A stretch of DNA of 64,000 bases from Nymphaea colorata (taxonomy: Eukaryota; Streptophyta; Magnoliopsida; Nymphaeales; Nymphaeaceae), in assembly GCF_008831285.2 (NCBI RefSeq), contig NC_045138.2:29359934-29423933 (forward strand). Reading direction: 5' to 3'. A program made the translations under genes and the position numbers. Every line of letters begins with the position of its first letter. The stretch's first letter is position 1. The notes below the pieces were generated by a model, which worked only from the letters and a program-made list of their open reading frames with translations, was not told where the DNA came from and did not search any database. Shown here piece by piece: positions 19,762 through 64,000 of this stretch.

Positions 19762-19798
<37 letters not shown>

Positions 19799-31412: not shown

Positions 31413-33400
31413 TGTAGTATGAGAGTACCGAGTCTTGAGAGTTGCTGGACACTTTTTACGTGGAGTCATCCTTCCATACTTGACATGTTCAACTAGTAGG
31501 ACAGGGTCTAAAGTTGGTTAATTTGGCTTTGGAACCAAAGAAATTAACCTAACTAGCTAATGCAAACTTCATTTAACTCGATGTGTTAAATAACTTCTTA
31601 TTTGTGACATTTCTTTAAGGAGCTGCTATATGTTACAGATTTTTTTGATGTGATGGCCGATGGGGCTTACTTGGGGATAGTTACATCCCGTGATGTCTGT
31701 TGTACACTGGAGCATAATGAGATTGACTTGGAACCTTCTGAAGGAATGCCACTGTGTCATGGGTATTGTAAACTTTGGCATCGTATAACAGGTTTTGCTA
31801 CAATTAGTGGAGGGACCAAGTTGGTGAGTAGTCGATGGACCAATTTGCCTAACGCCTTTTCTATTTGCACAATTTGCGGAGAATCCCTAATTGCAGGAAC
31901 AGTTATGGATTAAAAAAGAAAAGATGCACAATGTGAGATCAATACTCTCTTTCTCTCCTCTTTCACACACAGACATGCTAAGATAAGAATGTCTACCGCT
32001 TCCAACATGATTTACTTTGGCTAAGATAAGAATGTCTACCGCTTCCAACATGATTTACTTTGAGCAGACTTGCTACTTGTCACTAGGCCATTTTGAATTT
32101 GAACAAAATAAAAGGCCTACAGATTTGTACTGTGAGAACGTTGTAGTCTGAATCACCCGGACGACCTCGCAGGGCATATATTAAATCCCAAAAAATTGAT
32201 CCTGGAGTATAGAAGCCAAACCAGGAAGTGCCATGCTTGAGCCAAACTGATTTGGAGACTGAAACTTTGAAACCAAGCATTTGGCATCTCCAGAATTGCC
32301 TTCTTTAGCTCTGCAAACTTCTGATTTCACTCACTGCCTCTGGATAGAAATCAGTTCTAACAACGAGAAATGTTTACATTGGCTACAAATGGGTATTCAG
32401 AATAGAGGGTCGAGGATAAAGACTCCTGCAATTTTGCTGTAATTTCTTGTTAGTTTCTGCATCTCTTTTGTCAACCCGGACGTGCAGACGCTGTTTATGT
32501 TACCATTGCTGTAGGCTGTAGTTAGCTTGGCACTTTGGTTTTGTGCAGCAAATGTTTTTGTATCATCTTCTGTACAGCTGGTTTTGGTAGTTGATTAATA
32601 AAATTACAGAGGAACTCTCCAGAAGGTTTGATGCGGAAGCATTTGATTTGGCATCTCCAGATTGGTTGAGTCTGATATAATCTGATTCAACTATCATGTA
32701 CAGGTTATTTTAAGGTCATGCTTAGTTTGTTAATAATCACTTTCAACGGTTTGCATTTGGACCTAGACTCCCAGCTTGACAGTCAGGCCTCCAGCATCTA
32801 AACATCTCACCAGTCTCTCTGGAACAGACCACTATACTACTTCTAAGGAGAACTAGGCAGACCGAGACTTCTCCAAGCCAAGCATGGGTATAGCCACGCA
32901 GATTCCTGCTGATCGGACGATATTGTATACATCTCCACCTGACCTAGAACTTCAAGGGGCTAATTGTTATGGTAAAACATTCGTTTAATGGAGAAGCATA
33001 ACTAGGCATTTCAGTGGTACTAAATGATGATACGCTGGAATGTTCAGGGTTAGAGGACTGTTCTACGAATAAGCAGGACTAGAAAGTAGTTACAGGCATC
33101 ACAGGTGCCTTTTCAGTGACCGAAAATTTCCTTCTATCCAGAAAGCAGTTTCACAATGATGTGGAAGAAAGGAATATATTCAAAAGTAGGAACCTTTCTG
33201 CTTCGAATTCCACAAACTTTGTGAGTCTCGAACCAGAAAATCTTCACAAAAACTACCCACTTATATAGCATTCGATATGGTGGGAGAGCCACAATTAACA
33301 GAACAAGGAAAAAAGGAATTCTGAAGCTACAACGGCTCCATGAAGCTGTAAAATGTTCATCACCCTGACACATGCTCGTCCAGCGCAGTGGCCAGCCCAC
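31413..33400. other. Downstream/3'-UTR-like DNA, no confident gene
   Basis: An open frame at 31650-31916 (87 aa) shows no recognisable family. AATAAA at 32597-32602, in T-rich DNA typical of a plant 3' end, could serve the MAPR-like transcription unit. A 43-bp tandem duplication lies at 31977-32062. Confidence 0.4.
31977..32062 (+). repeat. Perfect tandem duplication of 43 bp
   Basis: GCTAAGATAAGAATGTCTAC...TTTACTTTG is present twice head to tail (31977-32019 and 32020-32062) without mismatch, which suggests a recent slippage or duplication. Confidence 0.9.
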
Positions 33401-37543: not shown

Positions 37544-37793
37544 TGTAGAGATACGAACAAGAAGAAGAGGAAGAGAAGCAATGATCACGATGTAACGTGG
37601 AAAACCCTCAACACGAGGGAGAAAAAACCACGAATGAGGAGTAGTTGGTGCCCACTAGCAGCCAGACTCTCTCTCTCTTAAGATTATCATTAACACATAA
37701 GGATTAGGGTTACATGACTTAAGTAGAGCCCAAAAACGGGCTACAAGGCGGGTCGGGTATGGATCCGGACCCGAACCACACAATCTGTCAACA
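37544..37793 (-). repeat. Copia LTR, 250 bp (3' LTR in element orientation)
   Basis: Begins TGTAGAGATAC and ends CTGTCAACA. By eye it is identical over its full length to the LTR at 42621-42870. The flanking 37539-37543 is ATTAT. The minus-strand purine tract TTGAGGGGGAG directly precedes it (37794-37804). Confidence 0.95.
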
Positions 37794-42131: not shown

Positions 42132-42602
42132 TCACACGATACAACACCAAAAAACGGACAGAGAGCAGGAAACGGAACCAGGCAAAGCGGCGCGGCGCTG
42201 GGCGGAAACAGACCAGGCAGAGCGGCACGGCGCCGGAAAAGGACACGGCGTTGGGCGGAAAAAGACCGCCGCTGGACAGGTCGTCGTTTGGGTAGGCCGA
42301 CGCTGGGCGGAAGCGGCTGAACGGGAACGCCGCTGGGCAGGGCGTCGCTGGGCGGAAGTAGCGGATTCCTGAGCGGAAGTAGCGGATTCCTGAGCGGCGC
42401 TAATCAGGGCGTCGCTGGGCCGGTTGTCGCTAGGCGGAGACGGCGGAATCCTGAGCGGTGCTGATCAGGGCGGCGCTGGGCGGAGACGGCGGCGGGACGA
42501 CAGACGACGCTCGGGCACGAGCGTCGGGCACGGGCGAGACGATGAACAGTGCCGGGCGATTCTCCTCTAACACGGGCAAAAGACAACCAGAAACGCCGGA
42601 AC
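42132..42602 (-). other. Copia untranslated leader with GC-rich degenerate repeats
   Basis: The region between the primer-binding site and gag. At about 42180-42490 it consists of irregular repeats of GCGCTGGGCGGAA and GCGGATTCCTGAGCG words and is far more GC-rich than the rest of the element. A direct 29-bp repeat lies near 42345-42400. Confidence 0.7.
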
Positions 42603-42620
42603 TTCACGGCTCTGATACCA
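42603..42620 (-). other. Copia primer-binding site (initiator tRNA-Met)
   Basis: The minus strand reads TGGTATCAGAGCCGTGAA directly after the 5' LTR, the classic plant Copia sequence complementary to the 3' end of initiator tRNA-Met. Confidence 0.93.
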
Positions 42621-42870
42621 TGTAGAGATACGAACAAGAAGAAGAGGAAGAGAAGCAATGATCACGATGTAACGTGGAAAACCCTCAACACGAGGGAGAA
42701 AAAACCACGAATGAGGAGTAGTTGGTGCCCACTAGCAGCCAGACTCTCTCTCTCTTAAGATTATCATTAACACATAAGGATTAGGGTTACATGACTTAAG
42801 TAGAGCCCAAAAACGGGCTACAAGGCGGGTCGGGTATGGATCCGGACCCGAACCACACAATCTGTCAACA
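42621..42870 (-). repeat. Copia LTR, 250 bp (5' LTR in element orientation)
   Basis: Same 250 bp as 37544-37793, with no difference found by eye. Followed by ATTAT (42871-42875), the right copy of the target-site duplication. Confidence 0.95.
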
Positions 42871-42875
42871 ATTAT

Positions 42876-44463
42876 TAATTTTTTTTAACGGCTAGGCCTT
42901 TCTGAGCATCTGGGTTGTGGTAGTTTTGGGGCTTGCTTTTGGTGTTCTGTCAATGGTTGATGTGCTCAATTGGGTGGTCTTCTTTCGGTGCTCTTTGTTT
43001 TGGTTTCTGGATGCTGCTTTAGTGGACAATGCAGAGGTGCTTCTTGTGTTTCATTTGTTTTCAGTCGCGTGCTGTTTATTGATTATTTTGTGTGTCTGAA
43101 ACTTCTGAGCCTGCAGTCTTATTTTTACTGTCATTGCTCATTGGAGTGTTCATTCTACCGTGGAAGAAGCATTCATTATTTCCATGACTTTTTGGGCATG
43201 ATTGCGTGAACTATCAAGGTCTTCGATCATGATAGTTTTTCAGCATTCCAACTGGTTGGTGTTTTGTGGGTTCTTTCTTGTTTGAAAAGCTCTGATGTCT
43301 GCACGCATGTTTTACTTTGCCTTGCTTCCCCGTCTTTCAGCATTCCAACTAAGTCTACCTTTGTAAATTATAACTTGGGAATTCATAACTTCATGGGACT
43401 AGTAGTAATAAGTTCTCAGAAGTAATGGTAGGGAAATATACAAGTTAAATATGCGTGTGTGAGTGAAATAACTTTTTCAAATGCAGCTTATGCTGTAGGG
43501 TTCTATGATCTATCAAACAGCAGGCGTACTGTTTCATGTATCTTCTCTAAGATTGCTGCAGATATATGAAACATTGTAACAACCCAATAAAAGCATTGTT
43601 CCTTTATGAACCAAGCATTTTCTCCTTTTGCTTACTATGTCTTCTCATCAATTTTTTTTTTTTTTTGAACAGAAAAAGTAAAAGAGACTTGAACCTCCCC
43701 AGTTGTCACATTGAAAGTCTAAAACTTAGTTTCATATGAACTTCCTCAAAAACATTTCATATTCACTCCTTTTCATCGTCAAGCTTTTGCAATGAGATCT
43801 AGGGATTTTAACCCCCTCCTTTGGCCTCAAACACACTTCTCTTAAACTGCACTTTTGAAACTGCCTTTGTTCTATCTTTTGTATTCATAATTATCTATTA
43901 TCTTTTGTATTCATAATTATCTATATACTTTATTTGAGGGGAGTTGAGCTTCTTGATTATAAAACTATCTTTGGATCTGATTCTCAATTGATTAAACAAC
44001 AATTTAATTCATCTCCTGCTATGGTGGTCATCTCGTCTAATTTCTTTTTCGCATTTTTCTGACTGGTCATACCAAACGTTCTAATTCGTGAGTTTAGCTT
44101 CCAATTTCTATTGTGGGACTGGTATTTGAGGCGCATGTTGTGTTTCTCTCTAACATGGAAATATTCATTCATTTCATTGCTCTTGTTTTAAGATGGAAGG
44201 GAATGAACAATTGTTTCATTAAGTTGACTTCGTATTTGCTATGGTATACATTTTCTTATGCAGGTTCTTCATTTGTCTTCGTGTCCTTATTTTCTTATGC
44301 TTGTTCTTCATTTGTTTTGGTGCTTCAACTTAAATAATTATTGCTTCACAAGAAGCTGATCAGCTCTTTGAGTTGCTCTACTATTTCTGCTGCTAGCTAT
44401 TGTTTTTTGTTCCTATCTTGGGGTTTACATTTACTTGATGTTTTTTCCTAAACTGTAGTACCT
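42876..44463 (+). other. PIF/Harbinger leader-intron DNA, no gene seen
   Basis: T-rich, intron-like sequence between the Copia insertion and ORF1. Short open frames have no domain. It ends with the acceptor TGTAG at 44454-44458 and TACCTATGG at the ORF1 start. Confidence 0.5.
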
Positions 44464-45466
44464 ATGGAAGGTTCAAGCTCAAGAAATGATAGTCTTGTCT
44501 GGAGTGACGCTCAACTAGATCATCTTATAGAACTTCTAGTTGAGCAATCAAGACTCCCTGGCATGAAGTCAGGTGCTAATTTAAAGCCAAAAGCGTTTAA
44601 GGTCATTGAACGACAAATGATAGAAATGTTTGGCCCACAATTCAAAGTCGAAAAAATTAAAAACAAATTGAAGAGTACGAAAGCAGACTACAATGTGTGC
44701 AGACAAATTTTGGCAACAAGTGGGTTTGGTTGGGACCCGATAAACCAGTGCGTAGATGTTGAAAATGAAGTTTGGGCGGAGTACATTCAGGTAAGGCAGG
44801 GACCATTTAGTGGAAATTAACCATCATGTCTATTACATTATACAACATATGTGACTGTAATTGTGTTTGCAGAAATTCCCTGATCGGCGCAAGTTTAAAG
44901 GGGGGCAAAAATGGAAACATTATCAACAACTAGACGAAGTGTTTGGCCAGTCCATTGCAAATGGTATTTGTAGTTTTACTTGTTCTTCATTGAATAGATC
45001 TAATGACTTACAAACTGATCAACCATCCGAGACCCCTACAACACATAACCCTGATTTGGGTTACAATGTTCATGAAAATGTATCCTTTACACAAATGTTG
45101 AACGAGGATTCTCCTGTGCCATCACCGACGCAGGTTGAACAAGATTCACAACAAACTGGATTTGAAAGTAGGACAACAAACTCATCAAATAAAAGAGCAA
45201 GAGTAAGTGCGAATCACGAGGGATATGAAACAATATTGCAGGAAATAGCTGATACTTTTCGTACAATGATAGACACATCCTCATATAGCTGCTTGAACAA
45301 ATGTTTAGAGCTATTGCAAGAAATGCTCGAGTTGGGAGAGATAGATGCTGGCATGCACTTAAAAGCCACGATGCTAATGGAGAAGCCAAACAAGCCAGTC
45401 GTCTTCCTCAAACTTCTGCCGACCCAACGTGTGCCTTGGTTGTTGGCTAATGTAAATCATCCATAG
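44464..45466 (+). CDS. PIF/Harbinger ORF1, Myb/SANT-like DNA-binding protein, two exons
   Basis: Exons 44464-44790 and 44873-45466 (GT-AG, phase 0) give 306 aa. Residues about 14-110 form a Myb/SANT-like domain (VWSDAQLDHLIELLVEQSR; FKVEKIKNKLKSTKADYNVC; GFGWDPINQCVDVENEVWAE), followed by KFPDRRKFKGGQKWKHYQQL and a Ser/Thr-rich, less conserved C-terminal half. In PIF/Harbinger elements this partner protein binds DNA and helps bring the transposase into the nucleus and onto the transposon ends. It lies 156 bp upstream of the transposase gene on the same strand. The frame is intact. Similar domains occur in domesticated host genes, but the surrounding inverted repeats make it a transposon gene. 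Confidence 0.88.
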
Positions 45467-45622
45467 TAAGTAGTGTGTGTTCTGTTACATCTTTATAATT
45501 CAATGATGTGCTTCTTTTAATTTATATGCAATTGAATGGATGCTATTGATATTGCTTTATACTTGATTGCGTAACATGTTTGTTTTTATGGCGGTTAACT
45601 CCTTTCCCCTTTCCATATTAGA

Positions 45623-47111
45623 ATGTTTTATTTGTACATTCACATGTCAAACATGAAACAAGTTGTTTTTCTCCTTCTGCTACCTAGTGCTGCAGTCATG
45701 TTGTCAGATGAAGAAGAAAGAAATCTTGTGATAGGAAGACTCATGTTTGCCGTGGCAATCATAATTTCTAGACTTCTTACTCAACCTAGACGAATCGTTC
45801 ACCCTTTTAGAAATGCTGGTTCGAGATTTGTTGATAATATCATCAATGGTCATCCAAGGAATTGCTTGGACTTAATGCGCATGGATCGCCTCTCGTTTAT
45901 TACATTATGTAATATCTTGAAAGAGAAAAATTTAGTAGAAGATGGTCGGGAAATCAGTGTAGAAGAGCAAGTTGCTATCTTTCTACTTACTGTTGGTCAT
46001 AACGAGCGCAACCGTGCGTGTCAGAACACGTTTCAACACTCAGGTCAAACAATTAGTAAGTACGTCAACATCATCTTACGAGCCCTATGTCAATTGGGTG
46101 AACAATACATCAGTCGACCAAACGATGACACTCCATCAAAAATCCGATTCAATCCTCGTTTCAATGCATATTTTCAGGTAAGGTAGTTCAACAAACTCAC
46201 ACAGTACATTGTACCAAATAATGTTTCACTAACATTTTTCATTGTACATAGGATTGTCTAGGAGCTATAGATGGCACTCACATACCAGTATGGGTACATA
46301 CATCAGAACAATCGAGGTTTCGAAATAGAAAAGGAACTCTCTCACAAAATGTACTGGCTGTAGTTGGTTTCGACATGCGATTCCACTATGTTTTGGCGGG
46401 CTGGGAAGGTAGTGCGACAGATTCAAGAGTATTGTACAGTGCACTAGACAACGATGTCGATCCTCTTCTCATACCTACAGGTTAGGTTGTGAATCTACTA
46501 TATTGGTACTTTTTAGGTTACAGTTGCATTTAATGTCGAACTCATAATAACTGTATTGTGTAGGGAAATACTACCTTGGTGATGGAGGATATCCAAACAT
46601 ACGTGGTTTACTAACTCCACATCGAGGTCATCGATACCATCTCTCTGAATTTAATACACCTGGGGCACGACGTGTTACATGTGCAGAGGAACTATTTAAT
46701 CATCGTCATTCATCGTTAAGAACAACTGTGGAACGAACTTTTGGTTTATTAAAAGGACGGTTCCCTATACTAAAAACACAAGTGTCGTACCCTTACCATA
46801 CACAAGTTGCGATTGTCTTAGCCACGTGTGTTCTACACAATTTCATTTTAGACCATAATCTTGAAGCAGAGCAGTTTGATGTTGATGAAAGTGCATTTGA
46901 CGATGCAAATGAGAGCACATCGTTTGTAAACGAGGATGAAAGTAGGACACAAAGTGTTCGTCGAGGATCGAATAATGATCTGCGCAGTACAATAACATCT
47001 CAAATGTTTACAGATTTTCAAATTCGTAGGTGCGGATTAACTTATCACACACATAAACAATTCTGTCGCAGTACAATAACAATTTCATTTCATCGCTTTT
47101 TATCTTCATAA
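45623..47111 (+). CDS. PIF/Harbinger DDE transposase, three exons
   Basis: Exons are 45623-46177, 46252-46480 and 46564 to about 47111, all with GT-AG borders and compatible phase. The translation start may be the ATG at 45623 or the internal MLSDEEERNLVIG. The N-terminal helix-turn-helix-like region (MDRLSFITLCNIL; VEEQVAIFLLTVGHNERNR; SGQTISKYVN) leads into the DDE_Tnp_4 nuclease core. The first Asp is in LGAIDGTHIPVW, the second in GSATDSRVL, and the Glu in TTVERTFGLLKGRFPIL; YYLGDGGYPN and FNHRHSSLR are also present. It cuts the terminal inverted repeats and inserts at TTA/TAA. The 3' end is uncertain: the open frame stops at 47111, but a donor near 47028 and an acceptor near 47149 could give another short tail. 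No stops or frameshifts are seen. Confidence 0.9.
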
Positions 47112-48455
47112 TCTCTTCGGAAATGTGATGTCTTTGTTTATGTTTTCAGGACTGATGGAAGATGAAGGACTGACATAATTGTGACGAATGTTCGAAGGTC
47201 GTGGAAGGGGAAAATTTGATTCTGTTTGTGTTTTTTGTTTTTTTATGGTGCAGAGACACTGCATATGTATTTGCTTTTATGGATGCTCGACACATGCACT
47301 TGGCTTTCTATTGAACGTTGAAGCTCTTCTGAATAGTGAACACTGATGGGAATATGTAAATATTTTATCACTGAAGGGACAATGTATGTGGTTTGATGCG
47401 CATTTTATCATTGATGGGACTATGTATGTTGTGTTGACGTTGCGCCTTGTTGTTGAATTGTATGGTATGTTTGATAGTCTATTGACGTGTTGTTGAATTT
47501 TGGAAATTTTATGGCTTTCATGTTTGTTATATGTTCCTTATCATTGAGTTGTTGCATCCACGTAATGGAGCGTGAAATGCATTTGGGCAACAATTCAGTA
47601 CTTCGTAATGAATATCTCAATTTAGAATGTTGAAATTGTGATTTTGTTTTCATGCAATCGATTGGTATACCAAAAGGAAAAATATTTATTATAAAGCCCA
47701 AGGTTAGATCCCTGATTTGCCAGCTGCTAATATGTTTCTATTTTTGTTTAATTCTAAATGATCTTCTCATGTTGAATTTGAGCAGGGTGAAGTGGCCATT
47801 GATAATTGCGTTGATTGAAGGTCATATTGTTCTTTGCATACGCTAGTGAATGATATATTCCCCCCAACGTCTCCAGAGCAGGTTTGTTTCTCTCCACTTT
47901 TCCTTTTCTTTGCCCTGTTTTGGGTTATGTGCTTGCTTTTTGGCTGCCTATAAACAGTGGAATCGATGGTCAGATTAGTGTTGATAAAGTTGTTAATGAT
48001 AATGATTCGTTGTTGGATTAATGTTGAATGATCTTATCCATTATATCATGTTGAACTTGGTTTTTCTTGTATATTTCTTAATGAGCGTGCTCTGTATATT
48101 TCTTAGCGGAAACAACTTTCATGTATATTTCTTAATTAGCGTGCTTGTATAGTTTTTCTTGTTAGATCATGTTGAACTTGGTACCCCTTCCTTGTGTACG
48201 TGGTTTTACTGTTCCTCTCTTGTAAATCTAGAAAAATATTTCCTTATTATCAAACCAAGAATTAATTTTTTGAAAATCTGGAAATATATTTCTTTTTCAT
48301 CAAACATAGAAATATATTTCTGAAAACATATTTCCAAATCATCACACACACATCAAAATTGGAATCGGAAAACTTTTTCCCATTCCATTTTTCCATTTCC
48401 TATATTTCCGGAAATATATTTCCAGAAATATATTTCTGGGCCATCAAACGGCCCC
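47112..48455 (+). other. PIF/Harbinger 3' non-coding and subterminal region
   Basis: T-rich 3' region without a gene. From about 48230 it carries repeated GAAATATATTTCC-like words in both orientations and ends in the right inverted repeat CATCAAACGGCCCC at 48442-48455. Confidence 0.7.
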
Positions 48456-48512
48456 TTAAGGATAAAATTGTTAGCTAGATTCTATAGGTTCAACACGAGA
48501 TCTGTCAACTTC
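48456..48512 (+). pseudogene. Remainder of the decayed Copia gag right of the transposon
   Basis: After the second TTA the gag-like reading resumes as KDKIVS, then VQHEICQLQRDD, continuing WDTYS from 36880. It blends into satellite sequence near 48512. Confidence 0.45.
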
Positions 48513-51500
48513 AACGGGATGATTACACCTCATTTATTTCTCATCCCCATCCTTTTGTACCAATAATGAGACGATTACACCACATCTAACTTTTATCTCT
48601 TGAATGCCTTTGAAGTTACATGTCATACTTTCTTGCCAAGATGATGAGACATAAAAAATAGTCCCAAATAAAGTATAATTTTTTTTTTATCGCTTTTCAT
48701 TATGAATATGATCCCACATGCAGCATCCACTACTTGTGTATGACAACCAATCAGCCTATTATTTTAATACCACTTAATTACCATTTTTAATGGTGGGGAT
48801 GTTGCTTCATCAAGATCCATAAATAGTTCTCAGGTGTCAAGAGACTGCTTCGGCTGTTGTTGAACGGGATCCATCATAGCCATTCTATCCTATTTCAATT
48901 TACCTACATAGAAATCCTTTTTCCAAAAACTCTTTTTGCATCTCCACTCATTTACTTATTTTACAAACGCCCAACAATTTCAACCCGTGTTTTCTCTTAT
49001 CTTTTGTTGAAAAGGAACAAACATATCTTAAGGGCATCGTCACCATAATTGTTGATATGCACTTTATATCATATTTCAAGAAAAAATTCATCATGAAGAT
49101 GATAAAGGTCTTCATGACTTTTTTCATAAAAAGAGAGTAGCATTTTTTGCCACTAAAAATTGAGCAGCTCCCCCACTTGGTCTCAAATGTAGGAAGCTGC
49201 ATGATATTTCTGTAGGAAAAAATAGACCTTAACTAGTCGAATATGTAGTTAACCATTCTCACCATGTACTCAGCTACTCCCACTTTTCTAGTATTGTCTA
49301 CTTTTCATTGTCATCCATTTTGTCTCACACATAACCACATAAAACTGAACATTATAACGATGCATCTAGTTGGTCATGCATTAGTTGTGTTTATGAGAAA
49401 CTATGCCGTTATAATTCTCTAACGTTTCTAGCAAAGGAACAAAAACAACATGAACATCGGCCACTGATTTCAACCAATATTTTGTCTTATCTTTCATTGT
49501 AAAGGAAACAAACATATGTCAAGGACATCATATCCTAAATTCTTGACATGCACCTTATATCATATTTCGAGAAGAAATTCATTAAGATGACGACAAGGCC
49601 GTCATGACCCTTTTCATAAAAAGATTGTAGTACTTTTCATCAGTCAAAATAGAGCAGCTGCCCCATCTGATCTCAAAATGCAGGAGGCGGCATGATGTTT
49701 GTATTGTGAAAAAATACACCTTAAGTACTCTAATATTTAGTTAACTATCCTCATCATGCCCTCGCTCTTTTATAGTATTGCATGCTTTTCATAGTCAATA
49801 CTTTTGTCTCACACGTAACCTCTTAACTGACCATTATGATGATGCATCTAGTTGGCCATGCATTGGTTGAGTCTTAAGTCAGCCATGTACTTCAATTGAA
49901 TTTGATTGACATTCTAAACTTGATGGTGGAGATGTTGCTTCATCAAGATCGTTTAGCAATTCCCAGGTCTTACGGGACTGCTTCTTCTCTGGTTGTATGG
50001 GCTTCATCGTAACTTTTCCGCCCATAATGCGACGATCACACATCATTCACGTCTCATCCCTTGAGTGCTCCATAAGTTATAAATGTCGCTCTCTCAGGCC
50101 AAGACGATGAGGCAAGATGCACAAGATTGTCAATAATAATCCCAAACAAAGTCTATGTCGGTTCATCTCTATTCGTCAAGAATATGCTCCCACATGCAAC
50201 ATTCGATAGTTTACCACGACAAACACTTGGCCATTTATTCTAATTCCAATAACTGACATTTTGAACTTGATGGTAGGAACGTTGCCTCATTAAGATCCTT
50301 GTGCGGTTCTCAACTCTCACAGGACTGCTTCTGCTCATGTATTACGAGGTTCATCGTATCTTTTCAACTCTACTTTTTTCATATTCAATACTTTTGTTTC
50401 ACACATAACCTCCCAAAACAGGATATTTTGCCGATGAATCTAGTTGGCCATGCATTGGTCGTGTCATCAGCCGACCATTTATTTCAGTTGCAATTGATTG
50501 ACATTTCTAACTCGATGGTGGGGACGTTGCTTAATCAAAATAATGAGATGATCACACATCATTCACATCTCATCCCATGAGTGCTCCATAAGTTATATAA
50601 GTGCGCACTCTCTTGCCAAGACGATGAGGCGAGATGCATGAGATTATCAATAATATCCGAAACAAAATCTATGTTCATTCATCGCTATTTGTCAAAAATG
50701 TGCTCCCACATGCAACATCTGCTACATTACCATGGTAACCTGTCAGCCATTTATTTTAATTGCACATAACTGACATTTTGAATTTGATGGTGGGGACGTT
50801 GCCTGATCAAGATTCTTATGTGGTTCCCAGGTCTCACGGAACTGCTTTCCCCTCTTGTTGTACGGGGTTCATAGTATCTTTTCTACACTAGTTCGATGTA
50901 ATCAAATGGAAATATTATTGTTTTCAATAGCCTTTTTGCATCTCCTCTCATTTACTAATTTGGACATCGGCCACTGATTTCAACCAATATTTTGTCTTAT
51001 CTTTCATTGTCAAGGAAACAAACATATGTCAAGGACATCATAACCTAAATTCATGACATGCACCTTATATCATATTTCGAGATGAAATTCATCAAGATGA
51101 CGACAAGGATCGTTATGACCCTTTTCATAAAAACATTGTAGTACTTTTCATCAGTCAAAATAGAGCAGCTGCCCCATCTGATCTGAAAATGCAGGAGGCG
51201 GCATGATGTTCATATTGTGAAAAAATACACCATAAGTAATCTAACATTTAGTTAACTATCCTCATCATGCCCTCGCACTTTTATAGTATTGCATGCTTTT
51301 CATAGTCAATACTTTTGTCTCACACGCAACCTCCTAAAACTGACCATTATGATGATGCATCTAGTTGGCCATTAAGATTGTAGTACATTTCATCAGTCAA
51401 AATAGAGCAGCTGCACCATTTGATCTCAAAATGCAGGAGGCGACATGATGTTCATATTGTAAAAAAAATACACCCTAAGTAATCTAACATTTAGTTAACT

Positions 51501-52020
51501 ATCCTCATCATGCCCTCACACTTTTATAGTATTGCATGCTTTTCATAGTCAATACTTTTGTCTCACACGTAACCTACTAAAACAGACCAGTAACCGGATG
51601 CATCTAGTTGGCCATGCATTGGTTGTGTCTTTAGTCAGCCATGTATTTCAATTGAATTTGATTGACATTTTGAGCTTGACGGTAGGGACACAGCCATGTA
51701 TTTCAATTGAGTTATAACTGTCGCTCTCTCTCGCCAAGACGATGAGGCGAGATGCACAAGATTGTCAATAATAATCTCAAACAAAGTCTATGTTTGTTCA
51801 TCTCAATTCGTCAACAATGTGCTCGTAGATGCAACCTCCGCTTACTTTACCATGGCAATCATACAACCATTTATTTTAATTTCACATAATAGACATTTTG
51901 AACTCGATGGTAGGGACGTTGCCTCATCAAGTTCCATATGCAGTTCCCATGTCTCACGGGACTGCTTCCCCTCTTGTTGCACGAAGTTCATCGTATCTTT
52001 CCTACCCACTTTTTTTTCAT
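48513..52020 (+). repeat. Diverged left edge of the satellite array
   Basis: Older, strongly diverged versions of the satellite monomers (ATGCATCTAGTTGGCCATGC at about 49844, 50438 and 51597; GGGACGTTGCCTCATCAAGA variants). They are mixed with an extra segment not found in the right part (GAGCAGCTGCCCCATCTGAT at about 49662 and 51170, variants at about 49160 and 51403). The block starting GACATCGGCCACTGATTTCA occurs at 49454 and 50944, giving an old repeat unit of about 1.49 kb. No genes. Confidence 0.8.
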
Positions 52021-54007
52021 AGTCAACAGTTTTGACTCACACATAACCTCCAAAAACTGACCATTATCCGGATGAATCTAGTGGGACATGCATCGGCTGT
52101 CTTCAGTCAACCATTCATTTCAAGTGAATTTGATTGACATTTTGAGCTTGATGGTAGGGATGTTGCCTCATCAAAATCCATATGAAGTTCCCATGTCTCA
52201 AGGGACTGTTTTCCATCTCGTTGTACGGGGTTCATCGTATCTTTCCTACCCTAGTCCTTTCATAGTCAATACTTTTGTCTCACACATAACCTCCTAAAAC
52301 TGACCATTATGCCAATGCATCTAGTTGGCCATGCATCGACTGTCTTCAGTCAGCCATTTATTACAAAAGTGCATTTGATTGACATTTTGAACTTGATGGT
52401 AAGGATGTTGCCTCATCATGATCCATATGCAATTCCCATGTCTCACGGGACTACTTCCCCTCTTATTGTCCGGGGTTTATCGTATCTTTCCTACCCTAGT
52501 TTTTTCATAGTTAATACCTTTGTCTCACACATAACCTCCTAAAACTGACCATTATGCCCATGCATGGCCATGTCTTCAGTCAGCCATCTATTTCAAATGC
52601 ATTTGATTGACATTTTGAATTTGATGGTAGGAACGTTGCCGCATCAAGATACATATGCAGTTCTCATGTCTCACGAGACTGTTTCCCCTCTTGCTATACG
52701 GGGTTCATCGTATTTTCTTTATCCTTGTTTTCTCATAGTTAATACTTTTGTATCACACATGACCTGCTAAAACTGACCCTTATGCCAATGCATCTAATTG
52801 GCCATGCATCGACTATGCCTTCTGTTAGCCATGTATTTCAAGTGCATTTGATTGATATTTTGAAATTGATGGTAGGGACGTTGCCTCATCAAGATCCAGA
52901 TTCAGATGCCATGTCTCATGGGACTACTTTCCTTTTTATTGTATGGGGTTTATTGCATATTTCCTACCCTAGTTTGTTTCGTAGTAAATACTTTTGTCTC
53001 ACATATAACCTCCTAAAACTAACCATTATGCTGATGCATCTAGTTGGCCATGCATCGGTTATGTCTTCATTCCGCCATTTATTTCAAGTGCATGTGATTG
53101 ACATTTTTAACTTGATGGTAGATACGTTGCCTCATCAACATTCATATGAAATTCGCATGTCTCATGGGACTGCATCCCCACTTGTTGTATAGGGTGCATC
53201 GTATGTTTCCAACCCTAGTTTTTTCATAGTCAATACTTTTGTCTCAAACATAACCTCCTAAAACTGACCATTATGCCGATGCATTTAGTTGGCCATGCAT
53301 CGACTATGTCTTCAGTCTGCCATTTATTTCGGGCACATATGATTGACATTTTTAACTTGATGGTAAGGACGTTGTCTCATCAATATCCATATCCAGATCA
53401 ATGTCTCACGGGACTGCTTCCCCTCTTGTTATACGGGGTTCATCGTATCTTTCCTACCCTAGTTTTTTTATAGTCAATACCTTTGTCTCACACATAACCT
53501 CCTAAAACTGACCATTGTGCCGATGCATCTAGTTGGCCATGCATCGGCCATGTCTGCAATCAGCCATTCATTTTAAGTGCATTTGATTGACATTTTAAAC
53601 TCGATGATAGGGACGTTGCCTCATCAAGATACATATGCAGGTCCCATGACTCACGAGACTGCTTCACATCTTGTTGTACGGGGTTCATCGTATCTTTCCT
53701 ATCCTTGTTTTTTTATAGTCAATACTTTTGTATGACACATGACCTCCTAAAACTCACCTTTATGCCGATGCATCTAGTTGGTCATCCATCGGCTATGTCT
53801 TCAGTCAGCCATTTATTTTAAGTGCATTTGATTGACATTTTGAACTTGATGGTAGAGACGTTTCCTCATCAAGATCCAGATGCAGTTCATATGTCTCACG
53901 GGACTGCTTCCCCTTCTGTTGTACTGGGTCCATCGCATCTTTCCTACCCTAGTTTTTTTCATAGTGAATACTTTTGTCTCACACATGACCTCCTAAAGCT
54001 GACCATT
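52021..54007 (+). repeat. Satellite array, simple about 245-bp monomers
   Basis: About eight tandem monomers with the landmark GATGCATCTAGTTGGCCATG at about 52312, 52785, 53033, 53278, 53524 and 53768 (and degenerate forms near 52066 and 52558), spacing 243-248 bp with one of about 228. Each runs through TTGATTGACATTTTGAACTT, GGGACGTTGCCTCATCAAGA, CTCACGGGACTGCTTCCCCT, GTACGGGGTTCATCGTATCT and ACTTTTGTCTCACACATAAC. Short open frames (70-140 codons) on both strands recur with the unit and are not genes. Confidence 0.9.
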
Positions 54008-55297
54008 ATGCCGATGCATCTAGTTGGCCATGCATCGGCCATGTCTTCAGTCGTCCATTTATTTCAAGTGTATTTGATGGACATTTTGAACTTGATGGTA
54101 GGGACGTTGCCTCATCAAGAACCATATGCATTTCTATTGTCTCACGAGATTGCTTCCCCTCTTGTTGCACGGGGTTCATCGTATCCTTCATATCCTAGCT
54201 TTTTCATAGTAAATACTTTTGTCTCACACACGACCTCCATAAACTGACCATTATGCCGATGCATCTAGTAGGCCATGCATCGGCTATGTCGTTAGTCAGT
54301 CATTTATTTCAAGTGCATTTGATTGACATTTTGAACAAGACGGTAGGGACGTTGCCACATCAAGATCCATATGTTGTTCCCATGCCTCGTGAGACTGCTT
54401 CCCCTCTTGTTGTACGGGGTTCATCATGTCTTTCCTACCCATGTTTTTTCATAGTCAACACTTTTGTCTCATCCAAAAACTGACCATTATGCTGATGCAT
54501 CTAGTTGGCCGTACACCGGCTATGCTGATCCATATGTCGTTCATCTCTATTCGTCAAGAATGTGCTCGCAGATTCAACATTCACTTACTTTACCACGACA
54601 CTCAGCCAGCCATTTATTTTAATTTCACATAACGGATATTGTGAACTAGATGGTAGGGACGTTGCCTCATCAAGATCTATATGCAGTTCCCATGTCTCAC
54701 GGCATTGCTTCCCCTTCTGTTGCACGGGGTTCATTGCGTCTTTCCTACCCTTGTTTTCTCATAGTAAATACTTTTGTCTCACACACAATCTCCATAAACT
54801 GACCATTATGCCGATGCATCTAGTTGGCCATGCATCAGATATGTATTCAGTCAGTATTTATTTCAAGAGCATTTAATTGACAATTTCAACTTGATGGTAG
54901 GACGCTGCCACATCAAGATCCATACGCAGTTCCGATGTCTCACGGGACTGCTTCCCTTTTTGTTGCACGGGGTTCATCGCAACATTTCTACCCCAATTTT
55001 TTCATAGTCAACACCTTTGTCCAACACATAACATCCTAAAACTGATCATTATGCCGATGTATCTAGTTGGCCATATATCGGCTATGTCTTCAGTCAGCCA
55101 TGTATTTCAAAAGTGCATTTGATTGACATTTTGAACTTAACCGTAAGGATGTTGCCTCATCAAGATCCATACGCAGTTCCCACGTCTCACAGGACTGCTT
55201 TCCCTCTTGTTGTACGGGGTTCATCGTATCTTTTCTTACGCTAGTCTTTGCATAGTTAATATTTTGTCTCACACATAACCTCCTAAAACTGGCCATT
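54008..55297 (+). repeat. Satellite higher-order unit 1 (1290 bp, shortened)
   Basis: Begins with the A-type monomer (CATCGGCCATGTCTTCAGTC). It lacks about 300 bp at 54527-54535, where the C-type monomer jumps directly into the D-type (CCGGCTATG/CTGATCCATATG). Otherwise it matches unit 2 closely. Confidence 0.85.
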
Positions 55298-56890
55298 ATG
55301 CCGATGCATCTAGTTGGCCATGCATCGGCCATGTCTTCAGTCGTCCATTTATTTCAAGTGTATTTGATGGACATTTTGAACTTGATGGTAGGGACGTTGC
55401 CTCATCAAGAACCATATGCATTTCTATTGTCTCACGAGATTGCTTCCCCTCTTGTTGCACGGGGTTCATCGTATCCTTCATATCCTAGCTTTTTCATAGT
55501 AAATACTTTTGTCTCACACACGACCTCCATAAACTGACCATTATGCCGATGCATCTAGTAGGCCATGCATCGGCTATGTCGTTAGTCAGTCATTTATTTC
55601 AAGTGCATTTGATTGACATTTTGAACAAGACGGTAGGGACGTTGCCACATCAAGATCCATATGTTGTTCCCATGTCTCGTGAGACTGCTTCCCCTCTTGT
55701 TGTACGGGGTTCATCATGTCTTTCCTACCCATATTTTTTCATAGTCAATACTTTTGTCTCATCCAAAAACTGACCATTATACTGATGCATCTAGTTGGCC
55801 GTACACCGGCTATGTCTTCAGTCAGCCATTTATTTCTAGTGCATTTGATTGACTTTTTAAACTTGATGGTAGGGACGTTGCCTCATCAAGATCCATATGC
55901 TGTTCACAGATCTCACGGGAATGCTTCTCCTCTGGTTGTACGAGTTTCATCGCATCAATTGCACCCATAATGAGACAACCACACATCATTAAGAACTCAT
56001 CTCTTGAGAGCTCCTTAAGTTACAATCGTGGCTCTCTCTTGCCAAGATGATGAGGCGAGATGCACAAGATTGTCAATAATAATACCAAACAAAGAATATG
56101 TTTGTTCATCTCTATTCATCAAGAATGTGCTCGCAGATTCAACATTCACTTACTTTACCACGACACTCAGCCAGCCATTTATTTTAATTTCACATAACGG
56201 ATATTTTGAACTAGATGGTAGGGACGATGCCTCATCAAGATCCGTATGCAGTTCCCATGTCTCACGGCACTGCTTCCCCTTCTGTTGCACGAGATTCATC
56301 GCATCTTTCCTACCCTTGTTTTCTCATAGTAAATACTTTTGTCTCACACACAACCTCCATAAACTGACCATTATGCCGATGCATTTAGTTGGCCATGCAT
56401 CGGATATGTCTTCAGTCAGTATTCATTTCAAGTGCATTTAATTGACAATTTCAACTTGATGGAAGGGACGCTGCCACATCAAGATCCATACGCAGTTCCG
56501 ATGTCTCACGGGACTGCTTCCCTTTTTGTTGCATGGGGTTCATCGCAACATTTCTACCCTAATTTTTTCATAGTCAACACCTTTGTCCAACACATAACAT
56601 CCTAAAACTGACCATTATGGCGATGTATCTTGTTGGCCATATATCGGCTATGTCTTCAGTCGGCCATATATCGGCTATGTGTTCAGTCAGCCATGTATTT
56701 CAAAAGTGCATTTGATTGACATTTTGAACTTAACCGTAAGGACGTTGCCTCATAAAGATCCATATACAGTTCCCATGTCTCACAAAACTGCTTCCCCTCT
56801 TGTTGTACGGGGTTCATCGTATCTTTTCATACCCTAGTCTTTGCATAGTTAATACTTTGTCTCACACATAACCTCCTAAAATTGGCAATT
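55298..56890 (+). repeat. Satellite higher-order unit 2 (1593 bp, full)
   Basis: Order: A (55298), B (55543), C (about 55785), the long D-type (about 55960-56220, with GATGAGGCGAGATGCACAAG), E (about 56374) and F (about 56620). The F monomer carries an extra small tandem duplication at about 56635-56690 (GGCCATATATCGGCTATGT twice). Confidence 0.87.
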
Positions 56891-58444
56891 ATGCCGATGC
56901 ATCTAGTTGGCCATGCATCGGTCATGTCTTCAGTCGTCCATTTATTTAAAGTGTATTTGATGGACATTTTGAACTTGATTGTAGGGACGTTAACTCATTA
57001 AGATCCATATGCATTTCTATTGTCTCACGAGATTGCTTCCCCTCTTGTTGCACAGGGTTCATCGTATCCTTCATATCCCAGCTTTTTCATAGTAAATACT
57101 TTTGTCTCACACATGACCTCCATAAACTGACCATTATGCCGATGCATCTAGTTGGCCATGCATCGGCTATGTCGTTAGTCAGCATTTATTTCAAGTGCAT
57201 TTGATTGACATTTTGAACAAGACGGTAGGGACGTTGCCACATCAAGATCCATATGTTGTTCCCATGTCTCACGAGACTGCTTCCCCTCTTGTTGTACGGG
57301 GTTCATCATGTCTTTCCTACCCATGTTTTTTCATAGTCAATACTTTTGTCTCATCCAAAAACTGACCATTATGCTGATGCATCTAGTTGGCCGTGCACCG
57401 GCCATGTCTTCAGCCAGCCATTTATTTCTAGTGCATTTGATTGACTTTTTAAACTTCATGGTAGGGACGTTGCCTCATCAAGATGCATATGCACTTCCCA
57501 TGTCTCACGGGAATGCTTCTCCTCTGGTTGTACGAGTTTCATCGCATTAATTGCACCCATAATGAGACAACCACACATCATTAAGAACTCATCTCTTGAG
57601 AGCTCCTTAAGTTACAATCGTTGCTCTCTTGCCAAGATGATGAGGCGAGATGCACAAGATTGTCAATAATAATACCAAAAAAAGAATATGTTCGTTCATC
57701 TCTATTCGTCAAGAATGTGCTCGCAGGTTCAACATTCACTTACTTTACCACGACACTCAGCCAGCCATTTATTTTAATTTCACATAACGGATATTTTGAA
57801 CTAGATGGTAGGGACGTTGCCTCATCAAGATCCGTATGCAGTTACCATGTCTCACGACACTGCTTCCCCTTCTGTTGCACAGGATTCATCTCCTCTTTCC
57901 TACCCTGGTTTTCTCATAGTAAATACTTTTGTCTCACACACAACCTCCATAAACTGACCATTATGCCGATGCATCTAGTTGGCCATGCATCGGATATGTC
58001 TTCAGTCAGTATTTATTTCAAGTGCATTTAATTGACAAATTCAACTTGATGGTAGGGACGCTGCCACATCAAGATCCATACGCAGTTCCGATGTCTCACG
58101 GGACTGCTTCCCTTTTTGTTGCACGGGGTTCATCGCAACATTTCTACCCTAATTTTTTCATAGTCAACACCTTTGTCCAACACATAATATCCTAAAACTG
58201 ACCATTATGCCGATGTATCAAGTTGGCCATATATCGGCTATGTCTTCAGTCAGCCATGTGTTTCAAAAGTGCATTTGATTGACATTTTGAACTTAACCGT
58301 AAGGATGTTGCCTCATCAAGATCCATATGAAGTTCCCATCTCTCACAGGACTGCTTCCCCTCTTGTCGTCATCGTATCTTTCTTACCCTAATCTTTGCAT
58401 AGTTAATACTTTGTCTCACACATAACCTCCAAAAACTGACCATT
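56891..58444 (+). repeat. Satellite higher-order unit 3 (1554 bp, full)
   Basis: Same A-B-C-D-E-F order as unit 2, without the small F-monomer duplication. Confidence 0.87.
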
Positions 58445-59757
58445 ATGCCGATGCATCTAGTTGGCCATGCATCGGCCATGTCTTCAGTCGTCTATTTATT
58501 TCAAGTGTATTTCATGGACATTTTGAACTTGATGGTAGGGACGTTGCCTCATCAAGATCCATATGCATTTCTATTGTCTCACGAGATTGCTTCCCCTCAT
58601 GTTGCACGGGGTTCATCGTATCCTTCATATCCTAGTTTTTTCATAGTAAATACTTTTGTCTCACACACGACCTCCATAAACTGACCATTATGCCGATGCA
58701 TGTAGTTGGCCATGCATCAGCTATGTCGTTAGTCAGTCATTTATTTCAAGTGCATTTGATTGACATTTTTAACAAGACGGTAGGGACGTTGCCACATCAA
58801 GATCCATATGTTGTTCCCATGTCTCACGAGACTGCTACCCCTCTTGTTGTACGGGGTTCATCGTGCCTTTCCTACCCATGTTTTTTCATAGTCAATACTT
58901 TTGTCTCATCCAAAAACTGACCATTATGTTGATGCATCTAGTTGGCCGTGCACCGGCTACGTCTTCAATCAGCCACTTATTTCTAGTGCATTTGATTGAC
59001 TTTTTAAACTTGATGGTAGGGACGTTGCTTCATCAAGATCCATATGCAGTTCCCAGATCTCACGGGAATGCTTCTCCTCTGGTTGTACGAGTTTCATCGG
59101 ATCAATTGCACCCATAATGAGACAACCACACATCATTAAGAACTCATCTCTTGAGAGCTCCTTAAGTTACAATTATTCCTCTCTCTTACCAAGATGATGA
59201 GGCGAGATGCACAAGATTGTCAATAATACTACCAAACAAAGAATATGTTCGTTCATCTCTATTCGTCAAGAATGTGCTCGCAGATTCAACATTCACCTAC
59301 TTTACCATGACACTCAGCCAGCCATTTATTTTACTTTCACATAACGAATATTTTGAACTAGATGGTGGGGACGTTGCCTCATCAAGATCCATACGCAGTT
59401 CCGATGTCTCACGGGACTGCTTCCCTTTTTGTTGCACGGGGTTCATCGCAACATTTCTACCCTAATTTTTTCATAGTCAACACCTTTGTCCAACACATAA
59501 TATCCTAAAACTGACCATTATGCCGATGTATCAAGTTGGCCATATATCGGCTATGTCTTCAGTCAGCCATGTATTTCAAAAGTGCATTTGATTGACATTT
59601 TGAACTTAACCGTAAGGATGTTGCCTCATCAAGATCCATATGAAGTTCCCATCTCTCACAGGACTGCTTCCCCTCTTGTCGTCATCGTATCTTTCTTACC
59701 CTAATCTTTGCATAGTTAATACTTTGTCTCACACATAACCTCCAGAAACTGACCATT
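58445..59757 (+). repeat. Satellite higher-order unit 4 (1313 bp, shortened)
   Basis: A, B, C and D monomers are followed directly by a hybrid monomer. At about 59375-59395 the D-type left half joins the E-type right half, removing one monomer length. Nearly identical to the start of unit 5. Confidence 0.87.
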
Positions 59758-61324
59758 ATGCCGATGCATCTAGTTGGCCATGCATCGGCCATGTCTTCAG
59801 TCGTCTATTTATTTCAAGTGTATTTCATGGACATTTTGAACTTGATGGTAGGGACGTTGCCTCATCAAGATCCATATGCATTTCTATTGTCTCACGAGAT
59901 TGCTTCCCCTCATGTTGCACGGGGTTCATCGTATCCTTCATATCCTAGTTTTTTCATAGTAAATACTTTTGTCTCACACACGACCTCCATAAACTGACCA
60001 TTATGCCGATGCATGTAGTTGGCCATGCATCAGCTATGTCGTTAGTCAGTCATTTATTTCAAGTGCATTTGATTGACATTTTTAACAAGACGGTAGGGAC
60101 GTTGCCACATCAAGATCCATATGTTGTTCCCATGTCTCACGAGACTGCTACCCCTCTTGTTGTACGGGGTTCATCGTGCCTTTCCTACCCATGTTTTTTC
60201 ATAGTCAATACTTTTGTCTCATCCAAAAACTGACAATTATGTTGATGCATCTAGTTGGCCGTGCACCGGCTACGTCTTCAATCAGCCACTTATTTCTAGT
60301 GCATTTGATTGACTTTTTAAACTTGATGGTAGGGACGTTGCTTCATCAAGATCCATATGCAGTTCCCAGATCTCACGGGAATGCTTCTCCTCTGGTTGTA
60401 CGAGTTTCATCGGATCAATTGCACCCATAATGAGACAACCACACATCATTAAGAACTCATCTCTTGAGAGCTCCTTAAGTTACAATTATTCCTCTCTCTT
60501 ACCAAGATGATGAGGCGAGATGCACAAGATTGTCAATAATACTACCAAACAAAGAATATGTTCGTTCATCTCTATTCGTCAAGAATGTGCTCGCAGATTC
60601 AACATTCACCTACTTTACCATGACACTCAGCCAGCCATTTATTTTACTTTCACATAACAAATATTTTGAACTAGATGGTGGGGACGTTGCCTCATCAAGA
60701 TCCGTATGCAGTTCCCATGTCTCACGGCACTGCTTCCCCTTCTGTTGCACGGGGTTCACCGCATCTTTCCTACCCTTGTTTTCCCATAGTAAATACTTTT
60801 GTCTCACACACAATCTCCATAAACTGACCATTATGCCGATGCATCTAGTTGGCAATGCATCGAATATGTCTTCAGTCAGTATTTATTTCAAGTGCATTTA
60901 ATTGACAAGTTCAACTTGATGGTAGGGACGCTGCCAAATCAAGATCCATACGCAGTTCCGCTGTCTCACAGGACTGCTTCCTTTTTTGTTGCACGGGGTT
61001 CATCACAACATTTCTACCCTAGTATTTTCATAGTCAACACCTTTGTCCAACACATAACATCCTAAAACTGACCATTATGTCGATGTATCTAGTTGGCCAT
61101 ATATCGGCTATGTCTTCAGTCAGCCATGTATTTCAAAAGTGCATTTGATTGACATTTTGAACTTCACCGTAAGGACGTTGCATCATCAAGATCCATACGC
61201 AGTTCCCATGACTCACAGGACTGCTTCCCCTCTTGTTGTACGGGGTTCATCGTATCTTTCTTACCATAGTTTTTGCATAGTTAATACTTTTTGTCTCACA
61301 CATAACCTCCTAAAACTGGCAATT
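59758..61324 (+). repeat. Satellite higher-order unit 5 (1567 bp, full)
   Basis: Its first about 930 bp, plus the preceding F monomer, is a near-perfect copy of the same stretch in unit 4, offset 1313 bp. The remainder restores the full D-E-F order. Confidence 0.87.
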
Positions 61325-62889
61325 ATGCCGATGCATCTAGTTGGCCATGCATCGGCCATGTCTTCAGTCATCCATTTATTTCAAGTGTATTTGATGGACG
61401 TTTTGAACTTGATGGTAGGGACGTTGCCTCATCAAGATCCATACGCATTTCTCTTGTCTCACGAGATTGCTTCCCCTCTTGTGGCACGGGGTTCATCGTA
61501 TCCTTCATATCCTAGTTTTTTCATAGTAAAAGCTTTTGTCTCACACACAACCTCCATAAACTGACCAGTATGCCGATGCATCTGGTTGGCCATGCATCGG
61601 CTATGTCGTCAGTCAGTCATTTATTTCAAGTAAATTTGATTGACATTTAAAACTAGACGGTAGGGACGTTGCTACATCAAGATCCATATGTTGTTCCCAT
61701 GTCTCACGAGACTGCTTCCCCTCTTGTTGTACGGGGTTCATCGTGTCTTTCCTACCCATGTTTTTTCATAGTCAATACTTTTGTCTCATCCAAAAACTGA
61801 CCATTATGTTGATGCATCTAGTTGGGCGTGCACCGCCTATGTCTTCAGTCAGCCATTTATTTCTAGTGCATTTGATTGACTTTTTAAACTTGATGGTAGG
61901 GACGTTTCCACATCAAGATCCATATGCAGTTCCCCGATCTCACAGGAATGCTTCTCCTCTGGTTGTACGAGTTTCATCGCATCAACTGCACCCACAATGA
62001 GACAACCACACATCATTAAGAACTCATCTCTTGAGAGCTCCTTAAGTTACAATTGTTGCTCTCTCTTGCCAAGATGATGAGGCGAGATGCACAAGATTGT
62101 CAATAATAATACCAAACAAAGAATATGTTTGTTCATCTCTATTCGTCAAGAATGTGCTCGCAGATTCAACATTCACTTACTTTACCACGACACTCAGCCA
62201 GCCATTTATTTTAATTTAACATAACGGATTTTGTGAACTAGATGGTAGGGACGTTGCTTCATCAAGATCCATATGCAGTTCCCATGTCTCACGGCACTGC
62301 TTCCCTTCTGTTGCACGGGGTTCATCGCATCTTTCCTACCCTTGTTTTCTCATAGTAAATACTTTTGTCTCACACACAACCTCCATAAACTGACCATTAT
62401 GCCGATGCATCTAGTTGGCCATGCATCGGATACGTATTGAGTGAGTATTTATTTCAAGAGCATTTAATTGACAATTTCAACTTGATGGTAGGACGCTGCC
62501 ACATCAAGATCCATACGCAGTTCCGATGTCTCACGTGACTGCTTCCCTTTTTGTTGCATGGGGTTCATCGCAACATTTCTACCCTAATTTTTTCATAGTC
62601 AACACCTTTGTCCAACACATAACATCCTAAAACAGATCATTATGTCGATGTATCTAGTTGGCCACATATCGGCTATGTCTTCAGTCAGCCATGTATTTCA
62701 AAAGGGCATTTTATTGACATTTTGAACTTAACCGTAAGGACGTTGCCTCATCAAGATCCATACGCAGTTCCCACGTCTCACAGGACTGCTTCCCCTCTTG
62801 TTGTACGGGATTCATCGTATCTTTCTTACCCTAGTTTTTGCATAGTTAATACTTTTTGTCTCACACATAACCTCCTAAAACTGGCAATT
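61325..62889 (+). repeat. Satellite higher-order unit 6 (1565 bp, full)
   Basis: Full A-F order; closely similar to unit 7. Confidence 0.87.
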
Positions 62890-64000
62890 ATGCCGATGCA
62901 TCTAGTTGGCCATGCATCGGCCATGTCTTCAGTCATCCATTTATTTCAAGTGTATTTGATGGACGTTTTGAACTTGATGGTAGGGACGTTGCCTCATCAA
63001 GATCCATATGCATTTCTCTTGTCTCACGAGATTGCTTCCCCTCTTGTTGCACGGGGTTCATCGTATCCTTCATATCCTAGCTTTTTTATAGTAAATACTT
63101 TTGTCTCACACACAACCTACATAAACTGACCATTATGCCGATGCATCTGGTTGGCCATGCATCGGCTATGTCGTCAGTCAATCATTTATTTCAAGTGCAT
63201 TTGATTGACATTTTGAAATAGACGGTAGGGACGTTGCCACATCAAGATCCATATGTTGTTCCCATGTCTCACGTGACTGCTTCCCATCTTGTTGTACGGG
63301 GTTCATCGTGTCTTTCTTACCCATGTTTTTTCATAGTCAATACCTTTGTCTCATCCAAAAACAGACCATTATGCTGATGCATCTAATTGGCCGTGCACCG
63401 GCTACGTCCTCAGTCAGCCATTTATTTCCAGTGCATTTGATTGACTTTTTAAACTTGATGATAGGGACGTTGCCTCATCAAGATCCATATGCAGTTCCCA
63501 GATCTCACGGGAATGCTTCTCTCTCTGGTCGTACGAGTTTCATCGCATCAATTGCACCCACAATGAGACAACCACACATCATTAAGAACTCATCTCTTGA
63601 GAGCTCCTTAAGTTACAATTGTTGCTCAATCTTGCCAAGATGATGAGGCGAAATGCACAAGATTGTCAACAATAATACCAAACAAAGAATATGTTCGTTC
63701 ATCTCTATTCGTCAAGAATGTGCACGCAGATTCAACATTCACTTACATTACCACGACACTCAGCCAGCCATTTATTTTAATTTAACATAACGGATATTGT
63801 GAAGTAGATGGTAGGGACGTTGCTTCATCAAGATCCATATCTAGTTACCATGTCTCACGGCACTGCTTCCCCTTCTGTTGCACGGGGTCATCGCATCTTT
63901 CCTACCCTTGTTTTCCCATAGTAAATACTTTTGTCTCACACCCAACCTCCATAAACTGACCATTATGCCGATGCATCTAGTTAGCCATGCATCGGATATG
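62890..64000 (+). repeat. Satellite higher-order unit 7 (cut by window end)
   Basis: A, B, C, D and the start of E are present; the array continues beyond the window. Confidence 0.87.

Follow-up and report, generated by a model that had tools for sequence, protein, structure and literature searches.

Results and Discussion

Layout of the array and its modules

The window analysed here is a 64,000-nucleotide stretch of Nymphaea colorata contig NC_045138.2 (positions 29,359,934 to 29,423,933 of the forward strand), in which a tandem array built on one repeat core runs from ~48.55 kb to the window's right end. We consider it, with a probability of roughly 0.88, to be the left-hand margin of a plant satellite that is non-coding and evolves through unequal homologous crossing-over. 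Array similarity starts at ~48,552, close to the 48,513 given by an earlier reading of the letters (the original prediction), and the array is at least 15.4 kb long and continues beyond the window's right end. A 75-bp core anchor located 51 sites between 48780 and 63798, each with 50-73 of 75 matching letters; no site elsewhere in the window, on either strand, reached 38 of 75 (the best flank scores were 36 on the + strand and 37 on the - strand, and one shuffle of the flank gave 35). All 51 cores lie on the + strand and none on the - strand, which is the head-to-tail arrangement of one monomer that characterizes satellite DNA. From 51897 onward the core spacings were 228-247 bp for ordinary monomers and 347-350 bp for a long monomer, with two exceptions (310 bp at 54330 and 274 bp at 56449), and the first four spacings, before 51897, were 1133, 347, 517 and 1120 bp.

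The monomers proved to be modular. A core, P, comprises about the first 150 residues and is common to all monomer types; in one type (f) it is followed by spacer L (~200 bp), and in the others by spacer M (~85 bp). Comparison of spacer L with the doubled P-M consensus revealed nothing beyond chance words of 7-10 letters. The long monomer had been described as carrying about 100 extra bases, but it instead has the unrelated spacer L substituting for M, and is not the result of an insertion. Likewise, the left-hand segment that had been called unrelated turned out to be another spacer, X, the third in number, which is present four times in the left zone (three of the copies being partial, with identities of 75-95%) and is absent at E 0.001 from 52097-64000 and from the left flank. 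In both X copies that have P on their left, X separates P from M, at the step from consensus residue 161 to 162. Because X recurs there four times, we regard the left zone as a modular repeat of greater age, with M, L or X following P, and M following X. Either a loss of X that gave rise to the P-M monomer or a gain of X is compatible with these copies. The parts of the array are as follows, where HOR stands for higher-order repeat, a to f for monomer types and U0 to U7 for successive HOR copies.

48552..51851, + strand: old zone, a modular repeat of core P with spacers L, X and M in mixed order
51852..54002, + strand: simple zone, nine ordinary P-M monomers, one of 228 bp and the others of 244-246 bp
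54003..54594, + strand: partial HOR copy U0, types d and e, then a deletion junction at ~54,525 into a spacer L remnant
54595..56159, + strand: HOR unit U1, a-b-c-d-e-f
56160..57749, + strand: HOR unit U2, a-b-c-d-e-f, including a local 27-bp repeat (56612-56698)
57750..59306, + strand: HOR unit U3, a-b-c-d-e-f
59307..60619, + strand: five-part unit U4, an a/b hybrid monomer, then c-d-e-f
60620..62186, + strand: HOR unit U5, a-b-c-d-e-f
62187..63752, + strand: HOR unit U6, a-b-c-d-e-f
63753..64000, + strand: start of HOR unit U7 (type a), ended by the window edge
55966..56159, + strand: example of spacer L in a type-f monomer, limits approximate, unrelated to spacer M
48563-48735 (66%), 50023-50204 (86%), 50540-50718 (81%) and 51707-51851 (88%): spacer L copies in the old zone
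50894..51297, + strand: reference copy of spacer X, 404 bp
48932-49296 (75%), 49451-49786 (95%) and 51374-51540 (94%): partial copies of spacer X

A six-type higher-order repeat

To compare the monomers, the array was cut at the cores into 51 pieces, of which the 48 measuring 200-360 bp were clustered at a 10% cut; the three old monomers of 517, 1120 and 1133 bp were omitted because whole-length alignment was impossible for them. From 54,595 the clusters run in the order a-b-c-d-e-f, forming five full units (starting at 54595, 56160, 57750, 60620 and 62187) with a period of 1,557-1,590 bp, and Tandem Repeats Finder (TRF) and the lag spectrum yielded the same periods. Monomers of the same type had a mean identity of 95.2% (minimum 92.2%), and those of different types a mean of 75.5% (maximum 87.1%), a low value because the spacer of type f is non-homologous; among themselves, types a-e averaged 76.6-85.0%. 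Same-type monomers in separate units are thus far more alike than neighbours are, and their order is fixed, as is characteristic of an HOR array. When the 38 monomers m13-m50 were compared by offset, mean identity was 90.2% at offset six, versus 74.6-80.0% at offsets 1-5 and 7-10, and none of 10,000 shuffles of their order reached the observed offset-six value (the shuffle maximum was 85.5%). In a maximum-likelihood tree of 110 core columns from all 51 monomers, every type from a to f formed one clade, with support from 96/82 to 100/99. The nine plain and four old monomers did not form single groups in this core tree, in which many of the deeper forks are unresolved.

The original prediction had placed a landmark at 54008, 55298, 56891, 58445, 59758, 61325 and 62890. 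A motif scan recovered all seven within 2 bp (at 54010, 55300, 56893, 58447, 59760, 61327 and 62892) and confirmed the steps of 1290, 1593, 1554, 1313, 1567 and 1565 between them; in our monomer cut each landmark lies 30 bp upstream of the start of a type-d monomer. The six-part unit with one long monomer that had been deduced from these steps describes four of the six, but the steps of 1290 and 1313 hold five cores each. Monomer clustering displayed the six-type a-f periodicity. The broader idea, that of a satellite which homogenises, has higher-order structure and is older at its edge, is supported by the spacings, the clustering, the identities, the shuffle test and the tree.

A 27-bp tandem repeat at 56612-56698, at the end of the type b monomer of U2, extends that monomer to 274 bp and is probably a small recent slip.

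Three zones rather than a gradient

The original prediction described a gradient of divergence, with old repeats at the left edge. We instead observed three zones. Plain monomers give way abruptly to the HOR at ~54,003, and the outermost, partial HOR copy is no older than those further inside. The nine monomers of the simple zone each formed a cluster of their own at the 10% cut, with a mean pairwise identity of 83.9%. Directly across the border, 54003-54524 (in U0) has 4 mismatches in 522 bp against the copy 1290 bp further on. Over its d-e part U0 shares 99.2% identity with U1, and this part is as close to U2, U3, U5 and U6 as that of U1 is. Alignment of whole units, including the L remnant of U0, gave lower values for U0 (93.5% to U1 and 89.0-91.1% to U2-U6), which in our reading reflects alignment of that remnant to non-homologous sequence or gaps. 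A smooth gradient within the HOR zone was not supported, as the d-e part of U0 resembles the inner units and more distant units are not consistently less alike.

Duplication, hybrid monomer and growth of the array

Two features inside the HOR zone bear on how its copies were made.

58067..59390, + strand: duplicated block of 1,324 bp, whose second copy starts 1313 bp further right and has 4 mismatches
59307..59553, + strand: a/b hybrid monomer, type a through residue 73, type b beginning at residue 85, with the crossover between them in the core

The repeat of 58067..59390 is a recent tandem duplication. In the hybrid monomer, a single in-register switch fits 50 of the 51 diagnostic positions, the exception being residue 2, which reads b. 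We read the unit at 59307 as a direct exchange product, since one unequal crossover between an a monomer and a neighbouring b monomer would yield it.

It is possible that the HOR copies arose instead by rolling-circle amplification of an excised circle and its reinsertion. Plant satellite-derived circles in multiples of monomer or HOR length are described in PMC2543021, and the HOR units show no steady divergence over distance. The a/b hybrid unit and its 1,313-bp neighbour, however, are directly accounted for by one unequal crossover, and we consider the rolling-circle route rather unlikely; the copies would then have been made by crossing-over.

In the reading favoured here, the probable history of the array is as follows. 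An older modular repeat, now at the array edge, would have consisted of core P followed by one spacer among M, L and X, with the P-L and P-X-M forms predating the amplified P-M form. The plain 245-bp array would derive from P-M units; five such units and one old P-L unit may then have been captured as a block of ~1,566 bp, and multiplication of this block would have produced the six-part HOR.

We also considered whether the HOR was seeded from monomer m04, which stands directly after the L remnant at 51.7 kb, and this was not supported. Monomer m04 looks closest to type a (84.6%), and when its first 45 bp are set aside this lead is nearly gone (87.9% versus 87.3% for type e).

Relation to transposable elements

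The repeats might have begun as the internal tandem repeats of a transposable element and expanded later, as with the Ogre elements of Lathyrus. Two transposons precede the array in the window.

37544-42870, - strand: Copia retrotransposon, a single open 1447-amino-acid frame between two 250-nt direct repeats
44452-48456: Harbinger-like element, with a Myb/SANT-like frame, a frame matching DDE_Tnp_4, two Pfam-negative frames between them and a right end resembling a terminal inverted repeat (TIR)

The two direct repeats around the Copia frame are probably its long terminal repeats (LTRs), and since they are identical, the insertion is recent. The transposase pieces at 44452-48456 are Harbinger-like. 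A left partner for its TIR-like end at ~48,456, which adjoins the array, was sought and not found.

An origin from transposon repeats has precedent, as satellite origin from retrotransposon repeats is documented in Lathyrus sativus for Ogre, where nine satellites, all but two of those analysed, have this origin (PMC7004042). Such a route could lead from a longer composite sequence to a satellite in the present case too, and the old zone, a larger composite unit containing sequence X, would suit it. Against this, and unlike the situation in L. sativus, no link to a retrotransposon was found here: the left array zone had no BLAST match in window positions 1-47800 at E 0.01, X is missing from the left flank, and 14-letter words of the array occur at just five scattered sites in the remaining 48.5 kb of the window, one of which (43848) lies between the Copia and Harbinger-like frames. 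The left edge of the array bears no sign of LTRs, TIRs or transposon genes of one element flanking it. Three of the 70 open reading frames (ORFs) of the array zone were tested, and none matched Pfam at its cut-off, the best match (DUF2198, E 0.074) falling below the curated cut-off. We therefore judge a transposon origin unlikely. Membership of the array in the adjoining Harbinger-like or Copia element was likewise rejected, the shared sequence being only the scattered 14-letter words.

A possible methylation signature and the centromere question

Transitions in the HOR zone were counted over five units, excluding U0 (partial) and U4 (near-duplicate). They affected 31 of 478 CG positions versus 39 of 2404 CHH positions, a fourfold excess (Fisher P = 3e-8), and CG transversions were not raised (1 of 478). 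This excess of CG transitions suggests that the HOR zone was methylated in the past, and the array may be methylated heterochromatin.

Spacer M contains a 10-bp inverted repeat; of the 45 copies scanned, 12 have it in perfect form. In type e it comprises only 5-7 pairs, and type f lacks spacer M altogether. Single-strand folding was not exceptional, with z of -0.7 to -1.4 for three monomer stretches and -1.7 for an L stretch, and a hairpin-forming dyad was accordingly rejected as a selected feature despite the 12 perfect copies. A conserved protein-binding box was rejected as well: no 20-bp window stands out as conserved, the best having a permutation P of 0.26.

These results also bear on whether the array belongs to a working centromere or pericentromere, with the HOR as its kinetochore-bearing form. 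HOR arrays with older edges are the pattern of primate centromeres, the perfect copies of the inverted repeat could be read in the same sense, and the CG transition excess is consistent with methylated heterochromatin. Plant genes or gene pieces, however, lie 24-35 kb from the array edge, and neither a conserved box nor unusual strand stability of the dyad was detected, the dyad itself being shorter in type e and missing from type f. We regard a centromeric role as improbable, and no function of the array's own is needed to explain it.

The core as a possible recombination hotspot

A different view of the modules makes core P a recombination hotspot to which any of three unrelated spacers can be joined. 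The satellite would then evolve through spacer swaps in addition to copying, and one such swap would have given rise to the young HOR. Four rearrangement junctions lie in, or carry, monomer residues ~66-92 of 245, a post hoc count that does not amount to a test. One is the a/b switch (73-85), two are the ends of truncated old cores, at 66 and 82, and the fourth is the 54,525 junction, in which ten letters match the residue ~66-92 stretch. Other junctions fall outside these residues, namely the HOR border at 53,972-54,002, the 27-bp repeat at 56,612, and the P/X, X/M and P/L joins. We hold the hotspot view to be very doubtful.

That part of the structure, such as the 1,313-bp duplication, is an assembly artefact is extremely improbable, since the duplication copies are indeed 99.7% alike but the other pairs among U1-U6 differ by 4-7%, which is not expected of an assembler's invention, and the junction is a clean hybrid monomer.

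Observations that fit less well

Several results weigh against reading the array as the left edge of a non-coding satellite that grows by unequal crossing-over. The U0 junction at ~54,525 is out of register, with a few core-like letters before spacer L resumes; as it is not a simple in-register crossover, a second, illegitimate event is needed. The likeness of HOR units does not fall steadily with distance (95.5% for U1-U6, 93.2% for U4-U5), and this pattern therefore does not separate local unequal crossing-over from other block amplification. The old zone contains recent duplications (49451-49859 versus 50961-51372, 95%; 51132-51372 versus 51374-51615, 93%), so that the term old fits its leftmost part best. 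For CHG sites of the HOR, the rise in transitions falls short of significance (P = 0.16). In the nine plain monomers the excess is smaller and likewise non-significant, with 11 of 107 CG and 15 of 125 CHG transitions (P = 0.23 and 0.06) versus 48 of 710 for CHH. Variation by codon position, compared by eye, had no clear pattern (0.149-0.171 over the monomer, 0.144-0.187 in the core). Finally, the visible sample is one array edge with five full six-part units.

Two further origins were considered. A coding or gene-fragment origin of the array gained no support from the codon pattern, judged by eye, or from Pfam on the 3 of 70 ORFs. For a ribosomal or other known RNA origin, the window yielded no Rfam match at gathering scores and no tRNA.

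Comparison with known satellites

The array is a new representative of an ordinary kind of plant HOR satellite. It is unusual only in the three alternative spacers on one core and in the presence of an old spacer form inside a young HOR. In primate alpha satellite HOR arrays, monomer types keep a fixed order and are multiplied in blocks, and older plain monomers border the array; the present array resembles them in all these respects. It differs from alpha satellite, whose HOR is built on a 171-bp monomer (PMC4053949), in its 245-bp monomer, its modular spacers and the lack of a detected conserved box.

HOR satellites are common: of 171 species for which Sanger data existed, 76 are reported to have clear HORs (PMC4053949). 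The same paper describes the switchgrass centromeric satellite B1, whose 1,131-bp HOR has six monomers and a truncated one of 53 bp, and whose fluorescence in situ hybridization (FISH) probes mark primary constrictions (PMC4053949). Both arrays are plant HORs of six monomers with a member of odd length; compared by description only, the odd member of B1 is a truncated copy, whereas here one of the six bears a different spacer. The VG-V subfamily of VicTR-B in Vicia grandiflora is also a plant satellite homogenised as an HOR, of five monomers, but with 38-bp monomers and a 186-bp HOR; the same paper supports recombination between plant satellite units (PMC2543021).

A search for six monomer pieces of 17-20 letters, or their complements, turned up no paper containing any of them. 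Among the matches listed from open-licence literature, there was no evident description of this monomer, and the expression 245 bp occurred there in two papers, neither of which is on plants by title. Exact core patterns had no match in viral, bacterial and archaeal contig collections, a negative of little weight given the make-up of these collections.

Array edges preserve history that is lost from the homogenised interior. At this one edge an older modular repeat, a zone of plain monomers and a young higher-order zone stand side by side, and the switch point of at least one crossover product is localized to about a dozen bases, which is useful for models of satellite growth.

Other features of the flank

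Further from the array, the window holds ankyrin repeat and PGG-domain frames at 13151-15935 and the end of a xyloglucan endotransglycosylase-like gene at 18709-20882 (- strand), whose upstream frame (20541-20882) has no Pfam match. A distance of 28-35 kb separates the latter gene end (at 18.7 kb) and the ankyrin/PGG frames (13-16 kb) from the array edge. Another PGG frame, partial and below the Pfam cut-off, lies at 24145-24465, ~8 kb from the first and 24 kb from the array edge. By these frames and the two transposons, the window is most likely plant DNA. The flank also contains a perfect AT microsatellite of 45.5 units at 8771-8861 and an exact 43-bp tandem duplication at 31977-32062.

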